64,000 nt of DNA. Source: Stutzerimonas zhaodongensis. Lineage in GTDB: Bacteria; Pseudomonadota; Gammaproteobacteria; Pseudomonadales; Pseudomonadaceae. How positions within the stretch are numbered: the stretch's first letter is position 1; every line of letters begins with the position of its first letter. The stretch is taken from NCBI RefSeq assembly GCF_003696365.1, contig NZ_RFFM01000001.1, forward strand, positions 1-64,000. Reading direction: 5' to 3'. This document shows, one piece after another, positions 6,430-18,996 of the stretch. The position numbers and the translations under genes are program-made. The notes under the pieces were generated by a model, which saw only the letters and a list, made by a program, of their open reading frames with translations, did no database searches and was not told the origin of the DNA.

Positions 6430-6461
6430 ATTGTAGCGCTTGAGTTGAGCAGTTATCCACA
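6430..6461 (-). promoter_or_regulatory. dnaA promoter -10 with overlapping DnaA box
   Basis: On the minus strand a -10 hexamer TACAAT occupies 6435-6430, 38 bases before the GTG of dnaA. The only perfect DnaA box of this intergenic region (TTATCCACA, 6453-6461) covers the expected -35 position. This is the classical arrangement for dnaA autorepression; repression itself is inferred. Confidence 0.55.
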
Positions 6462-6814
6462 ATCAAAGCCCCATACGAATGAAACGAAGCAGAAGAATCC
6501 AAAACTTTTCCTGTACCCGACGCATTTAACCCTGTTGATAAGCCAAACTGACCCATATGGAAAAGGCTGTGCATAACATAGTGATTTAGGCGTCTGTTGA
6601 TAAGTAGATGATTCATCCACAGCTTGCTCAACGGATCTACACCGTGGGCGCACCGGTTCGTCAGAGGTTTTCTATCCGCTGAAAGCTGCACAGCTGTTGG
6701 GCTCTAGCACTCTATCCACAGAAATCCGTGTCACCATCTATAAACACAGTTTTAAGAAGAGCTTTAATCTTTCTTTCTTATTTAAATTTCTCTGCAGATG
6801 AGGCTGGTTGGAAA

Positions 6815-6843
6815 TTGACCTGGCCTCACGGCTTCTCTACAAT
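6815..6843 (+). promoter_or_regulatory. Sigma-70 promoter of rpmH-rnpA
   Basis: TTGACC (6815-6820), a 17-base spacer and TACAAT (6838-6843) form a near-consensus promoter 59 bases upstream of the rpmH start. It lies just after the AT-rich part of oriC, so transcription from it would begin beside the unwinding region. Confidence 0.85.
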
Positions 6844-6901: not shown

Positions 6902-7036
6902 ATGAAACGCACTTTTCAACCCAGCACCCTGAAGCGCGCTCGTACTCACGGTTTCCGTGCTCGCATGGCCACCAAGAACGGTCGTGCAGTCCTGTCGCGT
7001 CGTCGCGCCAAAGGTCGCAAGCGCCTGGCAGTCTGA
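6902..7036 (+). CDS. rpmH: 50S ribosomal protein L34
   Basis: 44 aa, highly basic, begins [24 protein letters not shown] and ends KGRKRLAV, which is the almost invariant L34 sequence. L34 sits in the core of the large ribosomal subunit. The frame is open upstream into the origin, but the family start and length fix the ATG at 6902. First gene of the conserved rpmH-rnpA-yidD-yidC-mnmE string. Confidence 0.98.
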
Positions 7037-9435: not shown

Positions 9436-10803
9436 ATGAACGCAGCTATCGATACCATTGCTGCCGTCGCTACCGCCCCCGGACGTGGAGGGGTGGGTAT
9501 CGTGCGAGTGTCAGGACCACGCGCGAAGGCGATCGCGATCACCCTGACCGGCCGCGAGCCGACGCCACGTCATGCGCACTACGGTGCGTTTCATGCCGAC
9601 GATGGTGAAGTGATCGACGAGGGTGTGCTGTTGTTCTTCGCGGGTCCACATTCGTTCACCGGTGAGGACGTCGTCGAACTGCAGGGGCACGGCGGCACGG
9701 TTGTCATGGACATGCTGTTGCAGCGTTGTGTCGAACTTGGGTCACGCCTGGCGCGCCCTGGCGAATTCAGCGAGCGCGCCTTCCTTAACGACAAGCTCGA
9801 TCTCGCTCAGGCGGAGGCGATCGCCGATCTGATCGAGGCGAGCTCTGCTCAAGCGGCCCGCAACGCGGTTCGATCACTGCAAGGCGATTTCTCGCGGCTC
9901 GTTCATCAGTTGACCGAAAAACTGATTCAACTGCGGATCTACGTCGAGGCAGCGATCGATTTCCCTGAGGAGGAGATCGACTTTCTTGCCGACGGGCATG
10001 TCCTGGCTCAATTGGATGGCGTACGAACAGAGTTATCCACAGTGCAGCGCGAGGCGGGGCAAGGCGCCTTGTTGCGTGATGGAATGAGCGTGGTGATCGC
10101 GGGTCGTCCCAATGCCGGCAAGTCCAGCCTGCTCAACGCATTGGCTGGACGAGAGGCTGCAATCGTGACGGATATCGCTGGCACGACCCGCGATGTTTTG
10201 CGCGAACACATTCTCATCGACGGCATGCCGTTGCACGTAGTGGATACAGCAGGCCTGCGGGACACCGAAGACCAGGTGGAACGCATCGGTGTGCAACGGG
10301 CCCTTAGTGCAATCAGCGATGCCGACCGCATTCTGTTGATGGTCGATGCCAGTGCACCTGAAGCGCGAGATCCGCTTGCGCTGTGGCCTGAGTTTCTGGA
10401 TTTCAATCCGGATCCGAAAAAGGTGACATTGATCCGAAACAAAGCCGACCTGAGTGGCGAAGCAATCGCACTGAGCATCAGTCCGGAGGGTCAGGTTGTC
10501 CTGAATATGTCTGCCCGCTCAGGTGAAGGTATCGAACTGCTGCGCGAGCATCTCAAACAGTGCATGGGCTACGAGCAAACTGCTGAGAGCAGTTTCAGCG
10601 CTCGCCGTCGACATCTGGATGCGTTGCGCCTGGCTGAACAGCACCTGCTGCACGGCTATGAGCAACTGACCCTGGCCGGGGCGGGCGAGCTGCTCGCCGA
10701 AGATCTTCGCCTGGCGCAGCAGGCTCTCGGCGAAATCACTGGTGCATTCAGCTCCGATGACCTGTTAGGACGCATCTTTTCGAGCTTCTGCATAGGCAAG
10801 TAA
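9436..10803 (+). CDS. mnmE: tRNA uridine-5-carboxymethylaminomethyl modification GTPase MnmE
   Basis: 455 aa. With MnmG (17104) it builds the cmnm5 group on wobble U34 of several tRNAs. The N-terminal folate-binding part is followed by a G domain with G1 GRPNAGKSS from residue 223, GTTRD, DTAG and NKAD, and by the C-terminal FCIGK whose Cys is essential in the family. AGGAGG precedes the ATG. Usually close to mnmG; here the two are separated by the Mrp operon. A perfect DnaA box is embedded at 10033-10041. Confidence 0.97.
10033..10041 (+). other. Perfect DnaA box inside mnmE
   Basis: TTATCCACA, identical to the strongest DnaA-binding 9-mer, lies within the coding sequence 3.1 kb from oriC. 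A single 9-mer can occur by chance, but three such exact boxes fall in coding DNA between 10 and 20 kb. Confidence 0.45.
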
Positions 10804-10876: not shown

Positions 10877-11017
10877 TCAAGCCCGCGAAATGCGGCGCTC
10901 CCTGAGTTGCGTAGCTTGTTTAGCATCCTCTGCTTGATACGTCTGACAGCTGACGCCCCGTTGCGCCTGAAACAGCCGGTAACAGGCCTCGGCGAATCCT
11001 TGAACTACCTTTGTCAT
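10877..11017 (-). CDS. Possible small protein, 46 aa, between mnmE and mrpA
   Basis: A short open frame from ATG 11017 encodes a product beginning MTKVVQGFAEACYRLFQAQR and ending RERRISRA, basic at its C terminus. A weak GCGAG ribosome site is eight bases upstream. I recognise no family. It is the only feature in the 273-base gap before mrpA apart from an imperfect hairpin (10815-10840, CCGTCCG/CGGACGG without a T-run). It could be chance. Confidence 0.3.
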   Translation of the reverse strand: MTKVVQGFAEACYRLFQAQRGVSCQTYQAEDAKQATQLRERRISRA

Positions 11018-11076
11018 CAAAACACTCGCTATCGGCTCAGCCGTTTCCACAGCACCACGACAAAAAGGATGGCGCC

Positions 11077-13386
11077 GTGCTTGCCGCAATGTTTGTATCG
11101 TTCCTGGGCGCAATTTTCGCCAGGTTCCTCGTTAGCCGCACCTTTCCCCATGGGGGTTGGATCGCTGCGTTGCTGCCGGCGGGGCTGTTCGTATTCTTTC
11201 TGACGCAGGGCGCAGCCCTGGGCGAAACCCCTGTCATTAGTGAAACGTTGAACTGGGTTCCAGCGCTGGGTATCTCGCTGAGCCTGCGACTCGATGGATT
11301 CGCGCTGCTTTTCGTACTCCTGATCACCGGCATTGGCACGCTCGTGACGATCTACGCAGGCGCCTACTTTTCGCATTCGCCACGTGAGGAGGGCGCCCGC
11401 TTCCTGTCTCTGATTCTGCTGTTCATGACCGCGATGCTGGGGACTGTACTGTCCGACAATCTCATCGTGATGTTCGTGTTCTGGGAAGCAACCAGCCTGT
11501 TGTCGTTCATGTTGATCGGCTTCAACTCCAGCCGTCCGCAAGCTCGCAAGGCAGCGTTGCAGTCACTGGTGGTTACCGGCGGGGGCGGGCTGGCCTTGTT
11601 CGGCGGTATCTTGCTGATCGGCATCGCACTTGGCACCTACTCGCTGTCTGAGGTGGCGCTGCGTGCGCCCGAGCTGTTGGCCAGCCCGCTCGCCATTCCT
11701 GCAATGATCCTCATCATGCTGGGTGCGTTCACCAAATCAGCACAATTCCCGTTCCATTTCTGGCTACCTCAAGCCATGGAAGCTCCAGCGCCAGCTTCCG
11801 CATTTCTGCATTCGGCCACCATGGTCAAGCTCGGCGTCTACCTGCTGGCGCGCTTCGATCTGATTTTCGAAGGCGTACCGGCATTCAATACGACCCTGGT
11901 CACGATTGGTTGCCTGACCATGCTGCTGGCGGCCGTACGGGCCCTTTCCACAGATGGTTTCAAGGATGTCCTGGCGCATTCAACAGTGGGCTCACTTGGC
12001 GTCCTGGTGATGTTGATCGGCTTGGATGGTGACTATTCGGTGACGGCGCTGATTGCTTTCATCATTGCGCATGCCTTGTACAAGGCTGCGCTCTTCTTCT
12101 GCGCCGGTACCACGATCCATGCGGTAGGCGAGAGTAGATTGAGCCGCATCGGCGGGCTGGCGCGACGCTTGCCGGTGACTACCGTAGCGGCCGGGATGGC
12201 TGCGATCTCCATGGCCGGGCTTCCGCCGACGCTGGGATTCATTACCAAGGAATACCTATTCGAGAGCCAACTCAACGCGTCTTCTGGCTGGGTGATAGTG
12301 GCCGTTGCGGTACTGGTCAATGCGGTGTTCGCGGCGATCGCCGGGGTCGCGGCGATCCGCCCTTACTACCTTGGCAAGACGCGCAGTGAAATCAAGCACC
12401 CCGAGACCCCAGGGCTGTATCTCGGTCCGCTGGTTCTGGGCGGGCTGGGATTCATGTTTGGTCTAGCCCCGGATTTTCTGGTGCGCGGCCTTATTCAGCC
12501 AGCCAACGACGTACTGGTCGGGCACACGGTAGACCTGTCATTTTCGCTCTGGCACGGCTTCACACCGATGCTTGCGCTCAGCGCGACCGTGGTCGCTTTC
12601 GCGGGCGGGCTTATTGCCTACTGGCACCGCATCCACTATGCGCTTTCGCTGAACAAACGGTTGGCACGCGTGCTTGGTGACTTTGGTTTCAATGCGCTAT
12701 TCGCTGCCACCCTGCGCCTGGCCGAGCGCTGCACACGGCTCCTGCAGAACGGAGACCAGCATCGCTATACCTCCACAGTAGCTGCAGCAGTGCTGTTGAT
12801 CATTGGCTACGGCGTTCTTGCCAGCGGCACCCACCCGGTATTTACCCTTAATGGTGGGCGCTTCGACATGCCTTCGGCCGTCGTACTGCTGTTGATGTGC
12901 GTGGGTGCCATCGCTGCTACCCGCACGCCATCGCTGCTGCGGGCTATGATTGCAGTCGGTGTGGTGGGCTTTGGTTCGGCCCTGATCTTCCTGCTCAATG
13001 GGGCCCCGGATGTAGCGCTTACACAGTTTTCTGTCGAGGTTCTGCTGGTGCTGATCCTGGTGGCGCTGCTGCTGCGCGTGCCGGAGCGCGCAGCGTCGAC
13101 CCGTCAGCCTGGGGAAAAACGCTTTGATATCGTGCTCGCGGTCGGGTTCGCGATAGTGGTGTTCGTTGCGCTGGCCGCCACGATCACGCTGCCACTGGAC
13201 AGCACCATTTCCGATTTCTACGCCGCTACCAGTTACCTGCAAGCCCATGGCCGCAACGTGGTCAACGTGGTACTGGTCGATTACCGGGCCATCGATACCC
13301 TGGGCGAAGTCATTGTGGTGGCCTTCGCAGCCATGAGTGTGTGGGGACTTCTACGGGCATTACCGCGCAGGAGGACCACGCCATGA
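11077..13386 (+). CDS. mrpA: Mrp-type Na+/H+ antiporter subunit A
   Basis: 769 aa (also called MnhA/PhaA/ShaA). Large membrane subunit of the seven-subunit Mrp antiporter, related to NuoL. Proton-channel motifs are visible: the conserved Glu in [15 protein letters not shown], and [37 protein letters not shown]-terminal MrpA-specific region ([32 protein letters not shown]) is present. I choose GTG 11077, preceded by AAGGAT at nine bases, which starts just before the first membrane helix; ATG 11011 would add a polar 22-residue tail. The stop overlaps mrpB (ATGA). Confidence 0.92.
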
Positions 13387-13784
13387 ATTCGCTGATCTTC
13401 GCTACCTTCTCGCGGATCCTCTTTGGCCTGATGCTCGTCGTTTCGATCTTCGTGCTCTACCGGGGACACAACGAGCCCGGAGGCGGTTTCGTCGGTGGGC
13501 TGATTGCAGCTGCCGGGTTCGCCACCCTGGCGCTGGCCCGCGGCGTCGAAGCGGCTCGCGCCGCCCTACGATTCGAACCCATGACGGTTATCGGCCTCGG
13601 CATCCTCGCCGCGCTGTTTAGCGGTTTGTCCGGCCTCTGGCTGGACGGCTCGTTCCTGACACACCAGTGGGCAATCTTAGGCAGCTTCCACATCGGCACC
13701 ACGTTGCTGTTCGATATCGGCGTTTACCTGGTGGTGCTGGGCGGCATTCTTTCCCTGATCCTGCGCTTCTACGAGGGCCTCTGA
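13383..13784 (+). CDS. mrpB: Mrp antiporter subunit B
   Basis: 133 aa with four hydrophobic segments. The conserved MrpB motifs [16 protein letters not shown] (residues 23-38) and [19 protein letters not shown] are present. The ATG at 13383 overlaps the mrpA stop; a longer open frame begins inside mrpA and is rejected. A separate mrpB shows a group 1 type operon, not the group 2 type in which A and B are fused. Confidence 0.95.
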
Positions 13785-13785
13785 C

Positions 13786-14165
13786 ATGCATCTGCTCTTC
13801 GCATTCGCTATTGCCGTGATCGCTGGCTGCAGTCTGTACCTGATCCTGTCCCGGCACATCGTGCGAATTCTCCTGGGCGTCACCATGCTTTCGGCGGCGA
13901 TCAACCTGGTGATCTTTCTGTCCGGGCGGATCGTATCCAATGTGCCGGCGGTCATTCGAGCCGGAGAGAGCAGCCTGACGGCTGACGCGGCCAACCCATT
14001 GCCACAGGCACTGGTGCTCACAGCCATCGTGATCGGATTTTCGCTGACCGCTTTTTTTGCTGCGCTGGCGCTTCAAACCTATCGCAGTTTTGGCAGCGTC
14101 GATACACGTGACATCGGCGCCGCCGAGCGCCTGGGTTCGCCATTTACGTCAACTAAGGATCACAC

Positions 14166-14169
<4 letters not shown>
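13786..14169 (+). CDS. mrpC: Mrp antiporter subunit C
   Basis: 127 aa, NuoK-like, three membrane helices. Typical motifs are LSRHIVRILLGVTMLSAAINLVIFL and the block ANPLPQALVLTAIVIGFSLTAFF, which is the MrpC/NuoK signature. It starts one base after mrpB and overlaps mrpD by four bases (GTGA). The polar C-terminal tail after residue 100 is unremarkable. Confidence 0.95.
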
Positions 14170-15682
<1,513 letters not shown>

Positions 15683-15686
<4 letters not shown>

Positions 15687-16027
15687 AGACAGGCATCCTG
15701 CGACGCGTCATCGATGTAGCTGAATTGCTGGGGATCTATCTCTATGAACTGATCGTCTCCTCGGTGGCGGTCGCTCGCGCCGCGTTCTCGAGATCCCCGA
15801 ACATGCGCAGCTCGATCATCGCGGTGCCGATCGAACTGCGTACCGACATGGGCATTTCCGTGCTGGCCAGCCTGGTATCGCTGACACCGGGAAACTGCGC
15901 GCTGCACGTCAGTGATGATCGCCGCCTGCTGTATGTTCACGCGCTTGATGGTCGCGCTCCAGAGCAGATCATCAAATCGATCCGCGATGTCTTCGAGCGT
16001 CGCATTGCGCGCATCGAGAGGTGGTAA
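15683..16027 (+). CDS. mrpE: Mrp antiporter subunit E, short form
   Basis: 114 aa against about 158 for Bacillus MrpE. The C-terminal soluble module is conserved (IAVPIELRTDMGISVLASLVSLTPGNCALHVSDDRRLLYVHALD, then the FERRI helix), but the roughly 45-residue N-terminal hydrophobic hairpin is missing; only one short hydrophobic stretch (VAELLGIYLYELIVSSVAVA) remains. The ATG overlaps the mrpD stop, so the short form is not a start-calling artefact. Confidence 0.9.
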
Positions 16028-16029
16028 GC

Positions 16030-16290
16030 ATGATCGAAACACTGTTGATGCTGGTCATGCTGCCGTTAGGGCTGACCCTGTGGCGCATGATCGTTGCCCG
16101 AACGCTTGTAGACCGGGTTGTAGCACTGGACATGCTGACCGGAGTAGGCGTGGCCATCGCCGCGCTCGTAGCGGCCATGACCGGACGTAGAGAATTTCTC
16201 GACGTCGGGTTCGGACTCGGGCTGATCGGTTTTGTTGGAACCTGCGCCTTTGCGGTTTTCATCATGCGCAAGGGGAGGAGTAAGCAATGA
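16030..16290 (+). CDS. mrpF: Mrp antiporter subunit F
   Basis: 86 aa, three membrane helices. The LWRMIVARTLVDRVVALDMLTGVGVAIAAL region is the MrpF signature, with the conserved Asp in the second helix. I choose ATG 16030, preceded by GAGAGG; a GTG at 16021 would lie inside mrpE. It overlaps mrpG by four bases (ATGA). Confidence 0.93.
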   Translation: MIETLLMLVMLPLGLTLWRMIVARTLVDRVVALDMLTGVGVAIAALVAAMTGRREFLDVGFGLGLIGFVGTCAFAVFIMRKGRSKQ

Positions 16291-16676
16291 CAGATGTCCT
16301 GGCGGTAGTTTTCATGCTGGCTGGCGTGATTTTCCTGTTCGCCGCAGTGTTCGGCCTACTGCGTTTCGCCGACCCACTGCAGCGAATCCATGCCACGACC
16401 AAATCCGGAACTGTAGGTGCAGGCCTGATTCTGGTCGGCGTCATGATCCATATGGGGGATGTACAGGCGATTTTCATTGGATCAGCTACGGTGGTATTTC
16501 TGATGCTTACCATTCCAATCGCCGGCCACCTCCTTGGCCGTGCCGCCTATGTATCCGGAGCCCGCCTCGAAGGCTTGCATGGCAAGGACGCGCTTGAAGG
16601 CGTACTTGAACGCAGCCCTATCACGCTCGACGAAAGCCTGGCGCAGGCCGAACAGCATTCAAAAAAACGTTACTGA
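16287..16676 (+). CDS. mrpG: Mrp antiporter subunit G
   Basis: 129 aa, three membrane helices and a polar C-terminal tail. The family motif GLLRFADPLQRIHATTKSGTVGAGLILVGVMIHMG is intact. Last gene of the translationally coupled mrpABCDEFG operon; all junctions overlap or are at most two bases apart. No clear hairpin terminator follows; instead the second origin-like element begins within 60 bases. Confidence 0.95.
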   Translation: MTDVLAVVFMLAGVIFLFAAVFGLLRFADPLQRIHATTKSGTVGAGLILVGVMIHMGDVQAIFIGSATVVFLMLTIPIAGHLLGRAAYVSGARLEGLHGKDALEGVLERSPITLDESLAQAEQHSKKRY

Positions 16677-16732
16677 TGCTTCTTCACAACTCGAACACCA
16701 TGAAAATATGGTCGTTTCCCGCCTCCAAGCCC

Positions 16733-16995
16733 TGTAGATAACTGCGCTTAAGATAGGTAGATAACCGGGGGTCGAAGGGCCTGCATAACTCACCTGTGCA
16801 TAACTCCTCCTGTTATCAACAGCTAAATCACCTGATCCTAACTGGATCCGCCCAGGCGCAGCACAGGCTTTTGAAACCCTAGAACCCTTTCAGGGCTTGG
16901 CGTCCGTTAAGTTATCCACAGATACCCGCACCACCATTAACAAACATATCTACAAGCTCTTTATATATTTCTCTTTATTTATAAAGCTGATTCTC
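16733..16995. other. Second origin-like element upstream of mnmG
   Basis: The mrpG-mnmG gap (16677-17103, no gene) holds DnaA-box-like 9-mers at 16733-16741 (TGTAGATAA), 16756-16764 (GGTAGATAA), 16795-16803 (TGTGCATAA), 16813-16821 (TTATCAACA) and 16912-16920 (TTATCCACA, perfect). An AT-rich run follows at about 16936-16986. The right part resembles oriC at 6712-6791: both read TATCCACAGA, then CACCAT, AAACA, AGCT and a T/A-rich tract ending TTATTTA. A second autonomously replicating element next to gidA/mnmG is known in pseudomonads; activity here is not shown. Confidence 0.75.
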
Positions 16996-17034
16996 CTCTA
17001 TTGGTGGTTGATCAATTTTTGTGCAGAGCCCTTC

Positions 17035-17060
17035 TTTACAGGGGCCTAAGCCCCTATACT
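17035..17060 (+). promoter_or_regulatory. Palindrome and -10 element upstream of mnmG
   Basis: AGGGGC-CTAA-GCCCCT (17040-17055) is a perfect inverted repeat that runs directly into a -10-like TATACT (17055-17060), with TTTACA at 17035-17040 on its left. The TTTACA-TATACT spacing is 14 bases, short for sigma-70, so the true -35 may differ. The palindrome could be an operator or form a hairpin. Confidence 0.4.
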
Positions 17061-17103
17061 TGCGCGTTTCCCCAAACTCATCTGAACAGGCACGAGGTGC
17101 GTG

Positions 17104-18996
17104 GTGGATTTCCCTTCCCGTTTTGATGTCATCGTTATCGGCGGTGGCCATGCCGGTACCGAAGCTGCTTTGGCAGCAGCACGAATCGGCGTGAAGACAT
17201 TGCTGCTTACCCACAATGTGGAAACCCTTGGGCAGATGAGCTGCAATCCCGCCATCGGTGGGATAGGCAAAAGTCATCTGGTCAAGGAAATCGACGCATT
17301 AGGCGGAGCGATGGCCGCTGCAACGGACAAGAGCGGTATTCAGTTTCGTGTACTGAACAGCCGCAAAGGGCCGGCTGTTCGCGCTACTCGTGCCCAAGCG
17401 GACCGGATCTTGTACAAGGCGGCTGTCCGGGAGACTCTGGAAAACCAGGCGAACCTGTGGATATTCCAGCAAGCCGCAGATGACCTGATCGTTGAAGGCG
17501 AGGAGGTCAAAGGCGTCATTACTCAGATGGGGCTGCGGTTTTTCGCCGATTCCGTTGTGCTGACGACCGGTACCTTCTTGGGTGGACTTATCCACATAGG
17601 TATGGAGAACTATTCAGGTGGGCGCGCTGGAGATCCGCCATCCATTGCATTGGCTAGACGTTTGCGAGAGCTGCCGCTGCGGGTGGGTCGTCTCAAGACA
17701 GGTACCCCACCGAGAATCGATGGGCGAACCGTCGATTTTTCGGTGATGACCGAACAGCCAGGCGATACACCTATCCCCCCAATGTCATTTCTCGGCCACG
17801 CTGCCCAGCATCCAAGGCAAGTGAGCTGCTGGATTACCCATACCAACGCTCGGACACATGAAATCATCGCGGCCAATCTTGATCGTTCGCCGATGTACTC
17901 GGGGGTTATCGAAGGGGTAGGCCCGCGGTATTGCCCATCGATCGAAGACAAGATTCATCGTTTCGCCGATAAAGACAGCCATCAGGTTTTCATTGAACCT
18001 GAAGGGCTGACTACCCATGAGCTTTACCCCAATGGAATCTCCACGTCGTTGCCTTTCGACGTACAGCTGCAGATCGTGCAAAGCATCCGTGGAATGGAGC
18101 AGGCACATATTGTGCGTCCAGGCTATGCCATCGAATACGACTATTTCGATCCGCGCGATTTGAAATACAGCCTGGAAACCAAGGTTATCGCCGGGCTGTT
18201 CTTCGCGGGCCAGATCAACGGCACGACCGGATATGAAGAAGCGGGCGCTCAAGGGTTGCTAGCCGGAACCAACGCTGCCTTGCGCTCGCAAGGTAAGGAC
18301 AGCTGGTGTCCTCGGCGCGACGAGGCTTATCTGGGTGTGTTGGTCGACGACCTGATCACGCTCGGGACTCAGGAGCCTTATCGGATGTTCACCTCCCGGG
18401 CCGAATATCGGTTGATTCTCAGGGAGGACAACGCCGATCTCAGACTCACCGAAAAAGGCCGCGAGTTGGGTTTGGTGGATGATGTCCGGTGGTCCGCATT
18501 CGAACGCAAGCGCGAAGCTATCGTGCAGGAAGAGCAACGCCTTAAGAGCACCTGGGTCCGCCCATCAACGCCCCAAGGCGATGCCATAGCTCAACGTTTC
18601 GGTACGCCTCTGACGCACGAGTACAACTTGCTCAACCTCCTGGCGCGACCGGAAATCGATTACCGAAGCCTGGTTGCACTCACTGGTGAAGGCGTCGAGG
18701 ATGCGCAGGTTGCCGAGCAGGTCGAAATAAAAACCAAGTACGCTGGCTACATCGATCGGCAACAGGAAGAGATTGCCCGTCTTCGTGCCAGTGAGGACAT
18801 CGCGCTACCGATGGAACTGGATTATTCCTCGATATCCGGGTTATCCAAGGAGATCCAGCACAAGCTCTCCCTTGCCCGCCCCGAAACCCTCGGACAAGCC
18901 TCCAGGATTCCTGGCGTAACGCCAGCGGCTGTATCGCTTCTGATGATTCATCTGAAAAAACGCGGCGCCGGTCAGAAGCTGGAGCAGAGTGCTTGA
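17104..18996 (+). CDS. mnmG: tRNA uridine-5-carboxymethylaminomethyl modification enzyme MnmG (GidA)
   Basis: 630 aa. FAD-dependent partner of MnmE in U34 modification. The dinucleotide-binding motif [21 protein letters not shown] starts near residue 9, with the family blocks [22 protein letters not shown] and [11 protein letters not shown]. Two GTG codons stand in tandem; I choose the second (17104), six bases from GAGG and giving the usual MDFPSRF start, over 17101 (three bases). A perfect DnaA box lies at 17588. The stop abuts rsmG. Confidence 0.96.
17588..17596 (+). other. Perfect DnaA box inside mnmG
   Basis: TTATCCACA lies within coding sequence, 668 bases to the right of the perfect box of the second origin-like element. 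Confidence 0.45.

Follow-up and report, generated by a model that had tools for sequence, protein, structure and literature searches.

Bacteria are generally taught to have one origin per chromosome. Two autonomously replicating elements have been isolated from Pseudomonas aeruginosa, one of which is essential under laboratory conditions (PMC4403523, in excerpt), and this work goes back to Yee and Smith 1990, Smith 1991 and Jiang 2006 (as credited in excerpts of PMC4403523, PMC3642087 and PMC4285127). The existence of a second replicating element in a pseudomonad is thus already in print and its kind is known; the preliminary description of the present locus had likewise named a second autonomously replicating segment for pseudomonads, near gidA. 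Excerpts of further papers state that the P. aeruginosa oriC adjoins dnaA (PMC3642087), that oriC lies between rpmH and dnaA in two Pseudomonas genomes (PMC3596284, PMC6053426) and that TATCCACAGA is among the oriC motifs that a machine-learning study found for Pseudomonadaceae (PMC7174414). Our literature search, with subscription papers mostly outside its coverage, returned no account of family-wide conservation or of a shared geometry of the mnmG-side element, and this absence of a prior account is weak evidence of novelty.

The window (the whole stretch of DNA analysed here, 64,000 nucleotides) is the start of contig 1 of the host assembly (4.67 Mb in 27 contigs). NCBIfam models give the order dnaA, rpmH, yidC, mnmE, mrp-type antiporter genes, mnmG (Table 1); antiporter subunit G passes its curated cut-off (TIGR01300), subunits A, C and D have very low E-values yet remain below the NCBIfam cut-offs. 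We name the dnaA-rpmH element oriC1 and the mnmG-side element, at 16733-16991, oriC2. A dnaA-side oriC accompanied by a second origin-like element is the arrangement of P. aeruginosa, whose second element we take to be the gidA (mnmG)-side one; here, oriC2 is a putative origin, and the inserted mrp operon has moved the two elements 10.2 kb apart. Given its position beside mnmG and not beside dnaA, oriC2 is an oriC-like partner and not the dnaA-side oriC. Compared with the pseudomonad rpmH-dnaA oriC, oriC2 has different flanking genes and a different promoter, and oriC1 has an extra perfect box at 6453, near dnaA, and another box at 6568; the skeleton described below, its orientation, the AT-rich tract and spacer motifs are common to both, and TATCCACAGA is present at R1 of oriC1 and of oriC2.

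Table 1. Genes and origin-type features of the locus, with positions in the window.
Feature	Position	Strand	Description
dnaA	4938..6431	-	NCBIfam TIGR00362, above cut-off
oriC1 R4	6533..6541	-	TTATCAACA
oriC1 R2	6595..6603	-	TTATCAACA
oriC1 Rm	6613..6621	+	TCATCCACA
oriC1 R1	6712..6720	+	CTATCCACA
oriC1 AT-rich tract	6721..6791	+	putative unwinding element
rpmH promoter (probable)	6815..6843	+	TTGACC-17-TACAAT, conserved, outside shared block
rpmH (L34)	6902..7036	+	TIGR01030, above cut-off
mnmE	9436..10803		
mrp-type Na+/H+ antiporter operon	about 11011..16676	+	between mnmE and oriC2; NCBIfam models
oriC2 R4	16733..16741	-	DnaA box TTATCTACA, 1 mismatch, 179 bp before R1
Weak DnaA-box-like 9-mer	16756..16764	-	TTATCTACC, 2 mismatches, outside skeleton
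oriC2 R2	16795..16803	-	DnaA box TTATGCACA, 1 mismatch, 117 bp before R1
oriC2 Rm	16813..16821	+	DnaA box TTATCAACA, 1 mismatch, 99 bp before R1
oriC2 R1	16912..16920	+	perfect DnaA box TTATCCACA, adjoins AT-rich tract
oriC2 AT-rich tract	16921..16991	+	putative DNA unwinding element
mnmG -10 (probable)	17055..17060	+	TATACT, conserved, outside shared block; alignment
mnmG (gidA)	17101..18996	+	TIGR00136, above cut-off

DnaA boxes cluster in the mnmG gap beyond chance. Between 16677 and 17100 there are four boxes with at most one mismatch, a number that none of 2000 dinucleotide shuffles reaches (mean 0.11, largest 2), and seven with at most two mismatches, reached by two of 2000; the preliminary description had spoken of at least five box-like 9-mers, one of them perfect, and of an AT-rich tract beyond the last, and both are there, with the perfect box at 16912 and the tract directly after it. 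Averaged over the genus, the stretch from +20 to +80 after R1 of oriC2 is 77% A+T. The densest 300-bp stretches of the window are the dnaA-rpmH gap (six boxes) and then the mnmG gap (four).

The two elements share one skeleton: R4 on the minus strand, R2 on the minus strand 62 bp further, Rm on the plus strand after 18 bp, R1 on the plus strand after 99 bp, then the AT-rich tract. Scored over the whole window, this skeleton has three mismatches over its 36 box letters at 16912 and four at 6712, the next-best places in the 64 kb having 15 (plus strand) and 13 (minus strand), and the three-box pattern with at most three mismatches has exactly two matches in the 4.67-Mb assembly. Local alignment of 6440-6800 with 16720-17000, the comparison with shuffled controls put forward in the preliminary description, scores 39, the best of 1000 shuffles scoring 33. 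Without gaps, 6590-6799 is identical to 16790-16999 at 112 of 210 positions (next plus-strand place 80, best minus-strand place 77), and 6530-6799, aligned to 16730-16999 with R1 on R1 (offset 10,200), at 139 of 270 (runner-up places in the window: 96 on the plus and 96 on the minus strand). The earlier idea of a diverged oriC copy in the same order and orientation stands, but not its onset at the last box, because this longer match puts the start of the resemblance about 180 bp earlier, at the first box of the skeleton. Each R1 also lies about 190 bp before a start codon on the plus strand (-189 for mnmG, -190 for rpmH), in line with the placement of both elements upstream of plus-strand genes. 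The original observation is confirmed, and is stronger than first described.

This likeness is not limited to the boxes. With the boxes masked, oriC1 and oriC2 of the same genome (36 genomes) agree at 0.445 in the R4-R2 spacer, 0.442 in the Rm-R1 spacer and 0.417 in the AT-rich tract, against 0.25, 0.25 and 0.31 in shifted-register controls (largest 0.41, 0.35 and 0.40), and of the 76 columns outside the boxes where each element reaches a consensus of 60% or more, 62 have the same base (36 genomes). The flanks do not agree in these 36 genomes (0.274 and 0.259 against 0.255 and 0.257 when shifted), and the promoter regions that follow the elements, one for rpmH and one for mnmG, are each conserved and mutually unlike; the similarity ends at the edges of the elements, and the module alone is common to both loci. 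A high apparent conservation from +90 to +180 after realignment was attributed to gene-specific promoters and rejected as part of the module; a sigma-70 consensus scan did not call the TATACT at 17055..17060. Gene conversion between oriC1 and oriC2 is not supported: identity within genomes (0.480) is not above identity between genomes (0.484; 36 genomes), and there is no sign of recent conversion.

Across the genus of the host, oriC1 and oriC2 are conserved with similar strength. The three-box pattern (R4, R2 and R1, at most three mismatches) was sought in 56 genomes and has at least one match in 54 of them, with exactly two in the present genome. When the gaps before rpmH and mnmG were scored with 2 bp of slack and two mismatches allowed per box, at least three of the four boxes were found in 53/53 rpmH-side and 55/55 mnmG-side regions, and all four in 45/53 and 47/55; G019 (73% complete, no match) was left out on both sides, G003 and G030 on the rpmH side. 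Shuffled control regions (n=108) hold at most two boxes each; reverse complements of the same regions reach two of four boxes in 99 cases and three of four in nine, so that a score of three alone is no proof of orientation. Information content was computed ungapped from the R1 anchor over 42 oriC1 and 50 oriC2 rows, chosen because R4, R2 and R1, at exact spacing, had together no more than five mismatches, a choice that raises the box values. In bits per base, oriC1 and oriC2 then have 1.90/1.72 in R4, 1.69/1.78 in R2, 1.33/1.40 in Rm and 1.72/1.86 in R1; 0.73/0.72 in the R4-R2 spacer, 0.70/0.75 in the Rm-R1 spacer and 0.86/0.83 in the AT-rich tract; and 0.16/0.13 in the upstream flank, where the low values are partly due to indels (0.38/0.25 after realignment).

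The mnmG-side module has also been kept despite insertions. The preliminary description had placed it 10 kb from oriC, parted by an inserted antiporter operon, and this agrees with the genus comparison: the mnmE-mnmG gap is 6301 bp in this genome, whereas 43 of the 52 regions measured in the genus have 399-634 bp, with seven at 6.3 kb carrying the mrp genes and two further gaps of 2.5 and 3.3 kb. Eight genus genomes have the mrp operon between the elements, G030 being the eighth, and three Pseudomonas loci (L010, L014, L016) have about 4.6 kb between mnmE and mnmG without a match to mrpA or mrpD. The skeleton before mnmG retains at least three of its four boxes despite such insertions; in G030, where R2 has three mismatches and R4 is displaced by one, three boxes of oriC2 are left. 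The distance between oriC1 and oriC2 in the genus ranges from 4.3 to 10.2 kb (mostly 4.3-4.5 kb), and in the same-genus genomes tested the two elements have the same order and orientation.

In a family sample of 148 genomes, 18 of them from the host genus, 121 match at two mismatches or fewer, and several genomes with a single hit owe it to a 1-bp shift; same-strand pairs of pattern hits lie up to 24 kb apart among the matches listed. A close reading covered 30 genomes from 14 other genera, most of them chosen because they had a single match or none. The mnmG-side element (at least three boxes) is found in 25 of these 30 and is missing from all three g13 genomes read (G067, G083, G094), from G086 (g17) and from G081 (g11), and is in this sense dispensable in some lineages. 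The rpmH-side element is found in 27 of 28 scorable genomes, the exception being G081; G057 and G067 were excluded from this count, and G100 was counted as present, its element lying farther from rpmH than the scored stretch, where the score is 2. Both elements occur in 24 of the 28 genomes scorable on both sides, while three, from two genera (G083, G094, G086), have the rpmH side only and none of the 28 the mnmG side only, as would fit a main origin at oriC1. Where exact matches are missing, in g5 and in some genomes of g6 and g12, the cause is largely a 1-bp shift: Rm-R1 is 100 bp and not 99 in both elements of all five g5 genomes (G059, G075, G098, G109, G116), and of four g6 genomes three have a shift in one element only, as do the g14 genome and the g19 genome. 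An apparent loss of the dnaA side in genus g7 was rejected, since it is dnaA that has moved away (about 57 kb from rpmH in G061, L348, and about 32 kb in G100, L349) and the element stays with rpmH; both genomes still have one element before rpmH and one before mnmG.

In other families of the order, the three-box pattern matches in 12 of 186 genomes: eight times before mnmG (two of these, in f26, on the strand opposite to mnmG), twice before rpmH, once between rpmH and mnmG and once beside no query gene. Apart from those of family f6, we read 23 genomes beyond the family, eight of them chosen as matches, so that this sample gives no rate. In family f6, there is no box with at most one mismatch within 480 bp before mnmG in the seven genomes read, and all four skeleton boxes stand before rpmH in 6/6 scorable genomes (G232, G293 and G342 with the exact spacing, G267, G319 and G363 with a deviation of 1-2 bp). 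In Neptuniibacter (L022) and Amphritea (L023) the skeleton stands before mnmG, with five and six mismatches, and not at dnaA (17 and 18 mismatches); at loci titled Burkholderiales, Burkholderia, Janthinobacterium, Massilia and similar, no more than one box lies within 450 bp upstream of mnmG. Gene order also varies: L185/L289 (G289), L025 (Porticoccus) and L040 (Porticoccaceae) have the yidC-mnmE block inverted with respect to mnmG. The box cluster of L185 is flanked directly by rpmH (minus strand) and mnmG (plus strand), L289 and L025 have identical box lists and may be one organism, and L040 has a gene order like L185/L025, yet two boxes only.

The place and orientation of oriC2 are like those of E. 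coli oriC, which lies between mnmG and mioC with its perfect R1 and AT-rich tract facing mnmG. In E. coli (L089), boxes stand before mnmG at -356 (minus), -282 (minus) and -176 (plus), with weaker ones at -317 and -231. The R4-R1 distance is 180 bp there and 179 bp in oriC2; only this total agrees, since R2-R1 and R4-R2 are 106 and 74 bp in E. coli against 117 and 62 bp in oriC2, and E. coli oriC has no box with two mismatches or fewer 99 bp before R1, where oriC2 has Rm. After R1, E. coli oriC and oriC2 share 35 of 80 identities, equal to the best of 1200 registers; in the R1 register, E. coli oriC matches oriC1 at 98 of 265 positions (best of 1200 registers) and oriC2 at 79 of 265 (mean 66, best 90). 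Because E. coli oriC matches oriC1 better, its shared place with oriC2 shows no closer kinship; the comparison concerns how oriC2 is related to other origins and leaves its oriC-type character untouched.

Strand skew was tried as arbiter of the firing origin and rejected: measured at four-fold sites in genes on either side of the elements and between them, it does not tell the hypotheses apart. Right of both elements (where the genes are long ORFs, not annotated genes), plus- and minus-strand genes differ too little in GC skew (-0.065 and -0.037); they do differ in TA skew (0.34 versus 0.06), but the genes between the elements disagree. There, yidC (TA skew 0.33) looks leading, and mnmE (0.08), mrpA (-0.08) and mrpD (0.08) look lagging, the last three as expected with oriC2 as main origin. 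The cumulative GC skew, which dips near 16-17 kb, points the same way; TA skew and GC dip were both set aside as evidence. DnaA-trios, which the rule of the bacterial unwinding system (BUS) places 0-16 bp after a box (PMC8287927, in excerpt), are seen at oriC2 in the window as five NAN trios in a row, 8 bp after the box; across the genus, trios (at least three) are no commoner than in shuffles (oriC2 9/50 versus 32%, oriC1 8/42 versus 26%).

We hypothesize, with moderate confidence, that oriC2 is a selectively kept second oriC-type DnaA complex that would act as an auxiliary or conditional origin, oriC1 doing most of the initiation. By analogy with oriC in general, DnaA would fill R4, R2, Rm and R1 of oriC2, its oligomer would grow from R1 into the AT-rich tract and melt it, and the melted tract could then load helicase; most initiations would take place at oriC1, and oriC2 might also hold DnaA close to it. 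This reading of oriC2 as a competent, or conditionally competent, origin comes from the parts for a DnaA complex and for opening, which are kept about as in oriC1; since most examined relatives keep both copies, oriC2 would look like a maintained spare origin and not like a relic. A main start at oriC1 agrees with the P. aeruginosa literature, in which oriC is at dnaA and one element is essential (in the excerpts cited above), and is favoured by the pattern of losses and by gene direction: the genes named between the elements all point away from oriC1, and would be head-on to a leftward fork from oriC2.

A near-consensus box cluster so close to oriC1 could alternatively be a sink or timing element, as the preliminary description also offered, whose boxes bind DnaA and delay or time initiation without opening the strands. 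The datA element of E. coli binds DnaA and delays or times initiation in this manner, other DnaA box clusters exist in the present genome, and the loss of the mnmG-side element from some lineages also suits a sink. However, a sink should not need the 62/18/99 geometry, the AT-rich tract and the sequence between boxes, all of which are kept about as in oriC1, and we regard this explanation as less likely than an auxiliary origin, if worth keeping in mind. Within the genus the two elements keep one order and orientation in the genomes tested, usually with 4.3-4.5 kb between them, which could also suggest a split origin in which the DnaA complexes at oriC1 and oriC2 touch by DNA looping; this is distinctly improbable given a spacing anywhere between 4.3 and 10.2 kb among genus members, given pairs of pattern hits up to 24 kb apart in the family (among the matches listed), and given G083, G094 and G086, which keep the rpmH-side element only, and the seven f6 genomes without boxes before mnmG.

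There is little chance that the boxes serve in transcription control, with DnaA tying mnmG, and with it rsmG, parA and parB, to the replication cycle. DnaA is a known transcription factor (PMC8203912, in excerpt) and the conserved mnmG promoter lies directly downstream of oriC2, but about 140 bp separate R1 from the probable mnmG -10 that follows it, and a homologous module stands before the unrelated rpmH promoter, the downstream flanks sharing no sequence in register. Finally, the relic of an older origin in decay, an option left open by the preliminary description, now has hardly any credence: oriC2 is conserved like oriC1 across 50 aligned rows, and no fewer than three of its four boxes survive beside neighbouring insertions, even though the element is absent from some lineages and would be non-essential in P. 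aeruginosa (PMC4403523, in excerpt), provided that the second element there is the same one.

If oriC2 is a second oriC-type element as we hypothesize, a broader and doubtful idea can be raised tentatively: that Pseudomonadaceae would be true two-origin bacteria in which selection has preserved a duplicated oriC on the dnaA and the mnmG side, their dual state being a surviving intermediate of the gammaproteobacterial move of the origin between its two classic places. Family f6, with a dnaA-side copy only, of unchanged geometry, and other lineages and the enterics, with a mnmG-side copy only, are offered for this reading; if true, origin relocation would have proceeded by duplication and differential loss, not by rearrangement. 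Two alike and similarly conserved oriC modules, a few kb apart in most examined family members, are a test bed for the role of a second origin, and they also bear on how the E. coli origin came to lie away from dnaA.

Several other sightings of DnaA boxes and origin-region motifs were made along the way. Three parS-like palindromes lie on the dnaA side of the window, at 178, 2720 and 3350 (at most one mismatch to the consensus). The mnmG coding region itself contains a perfect box at 17588-17596 and one with a single mismatch at 17456-17464; two relatives from other genera (L347, L350) have them at roughly matching places, which may reflect codon conservation. Elsewhere in the genome, G000:C12:914500-916400 (L340) carries four perfect DnaA boxes, all on the same strand and spaced by about 190-270 bp. 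An intergenic element some 230 bp long, dispersed in the genome and without an Rfam match at gathering score, occurs in diverged copies at G000:C12 near 152709, 178562 and 250971 (L341-L343) and at C2:30972-31205, beside unrelated neighbours (gamma-glutamyltranspeptidase, GGDEF and HDOD proteins, flagellin). One copy, used as query, has matches in 20 of 59 family genomes (its own included), often barely extending beyond the box pair; the three copies that were aligned open with a perfect inverted DnaA box pair, TTATCCACA-N5-TGTGGATAA, and have a mean column identity of 75%.
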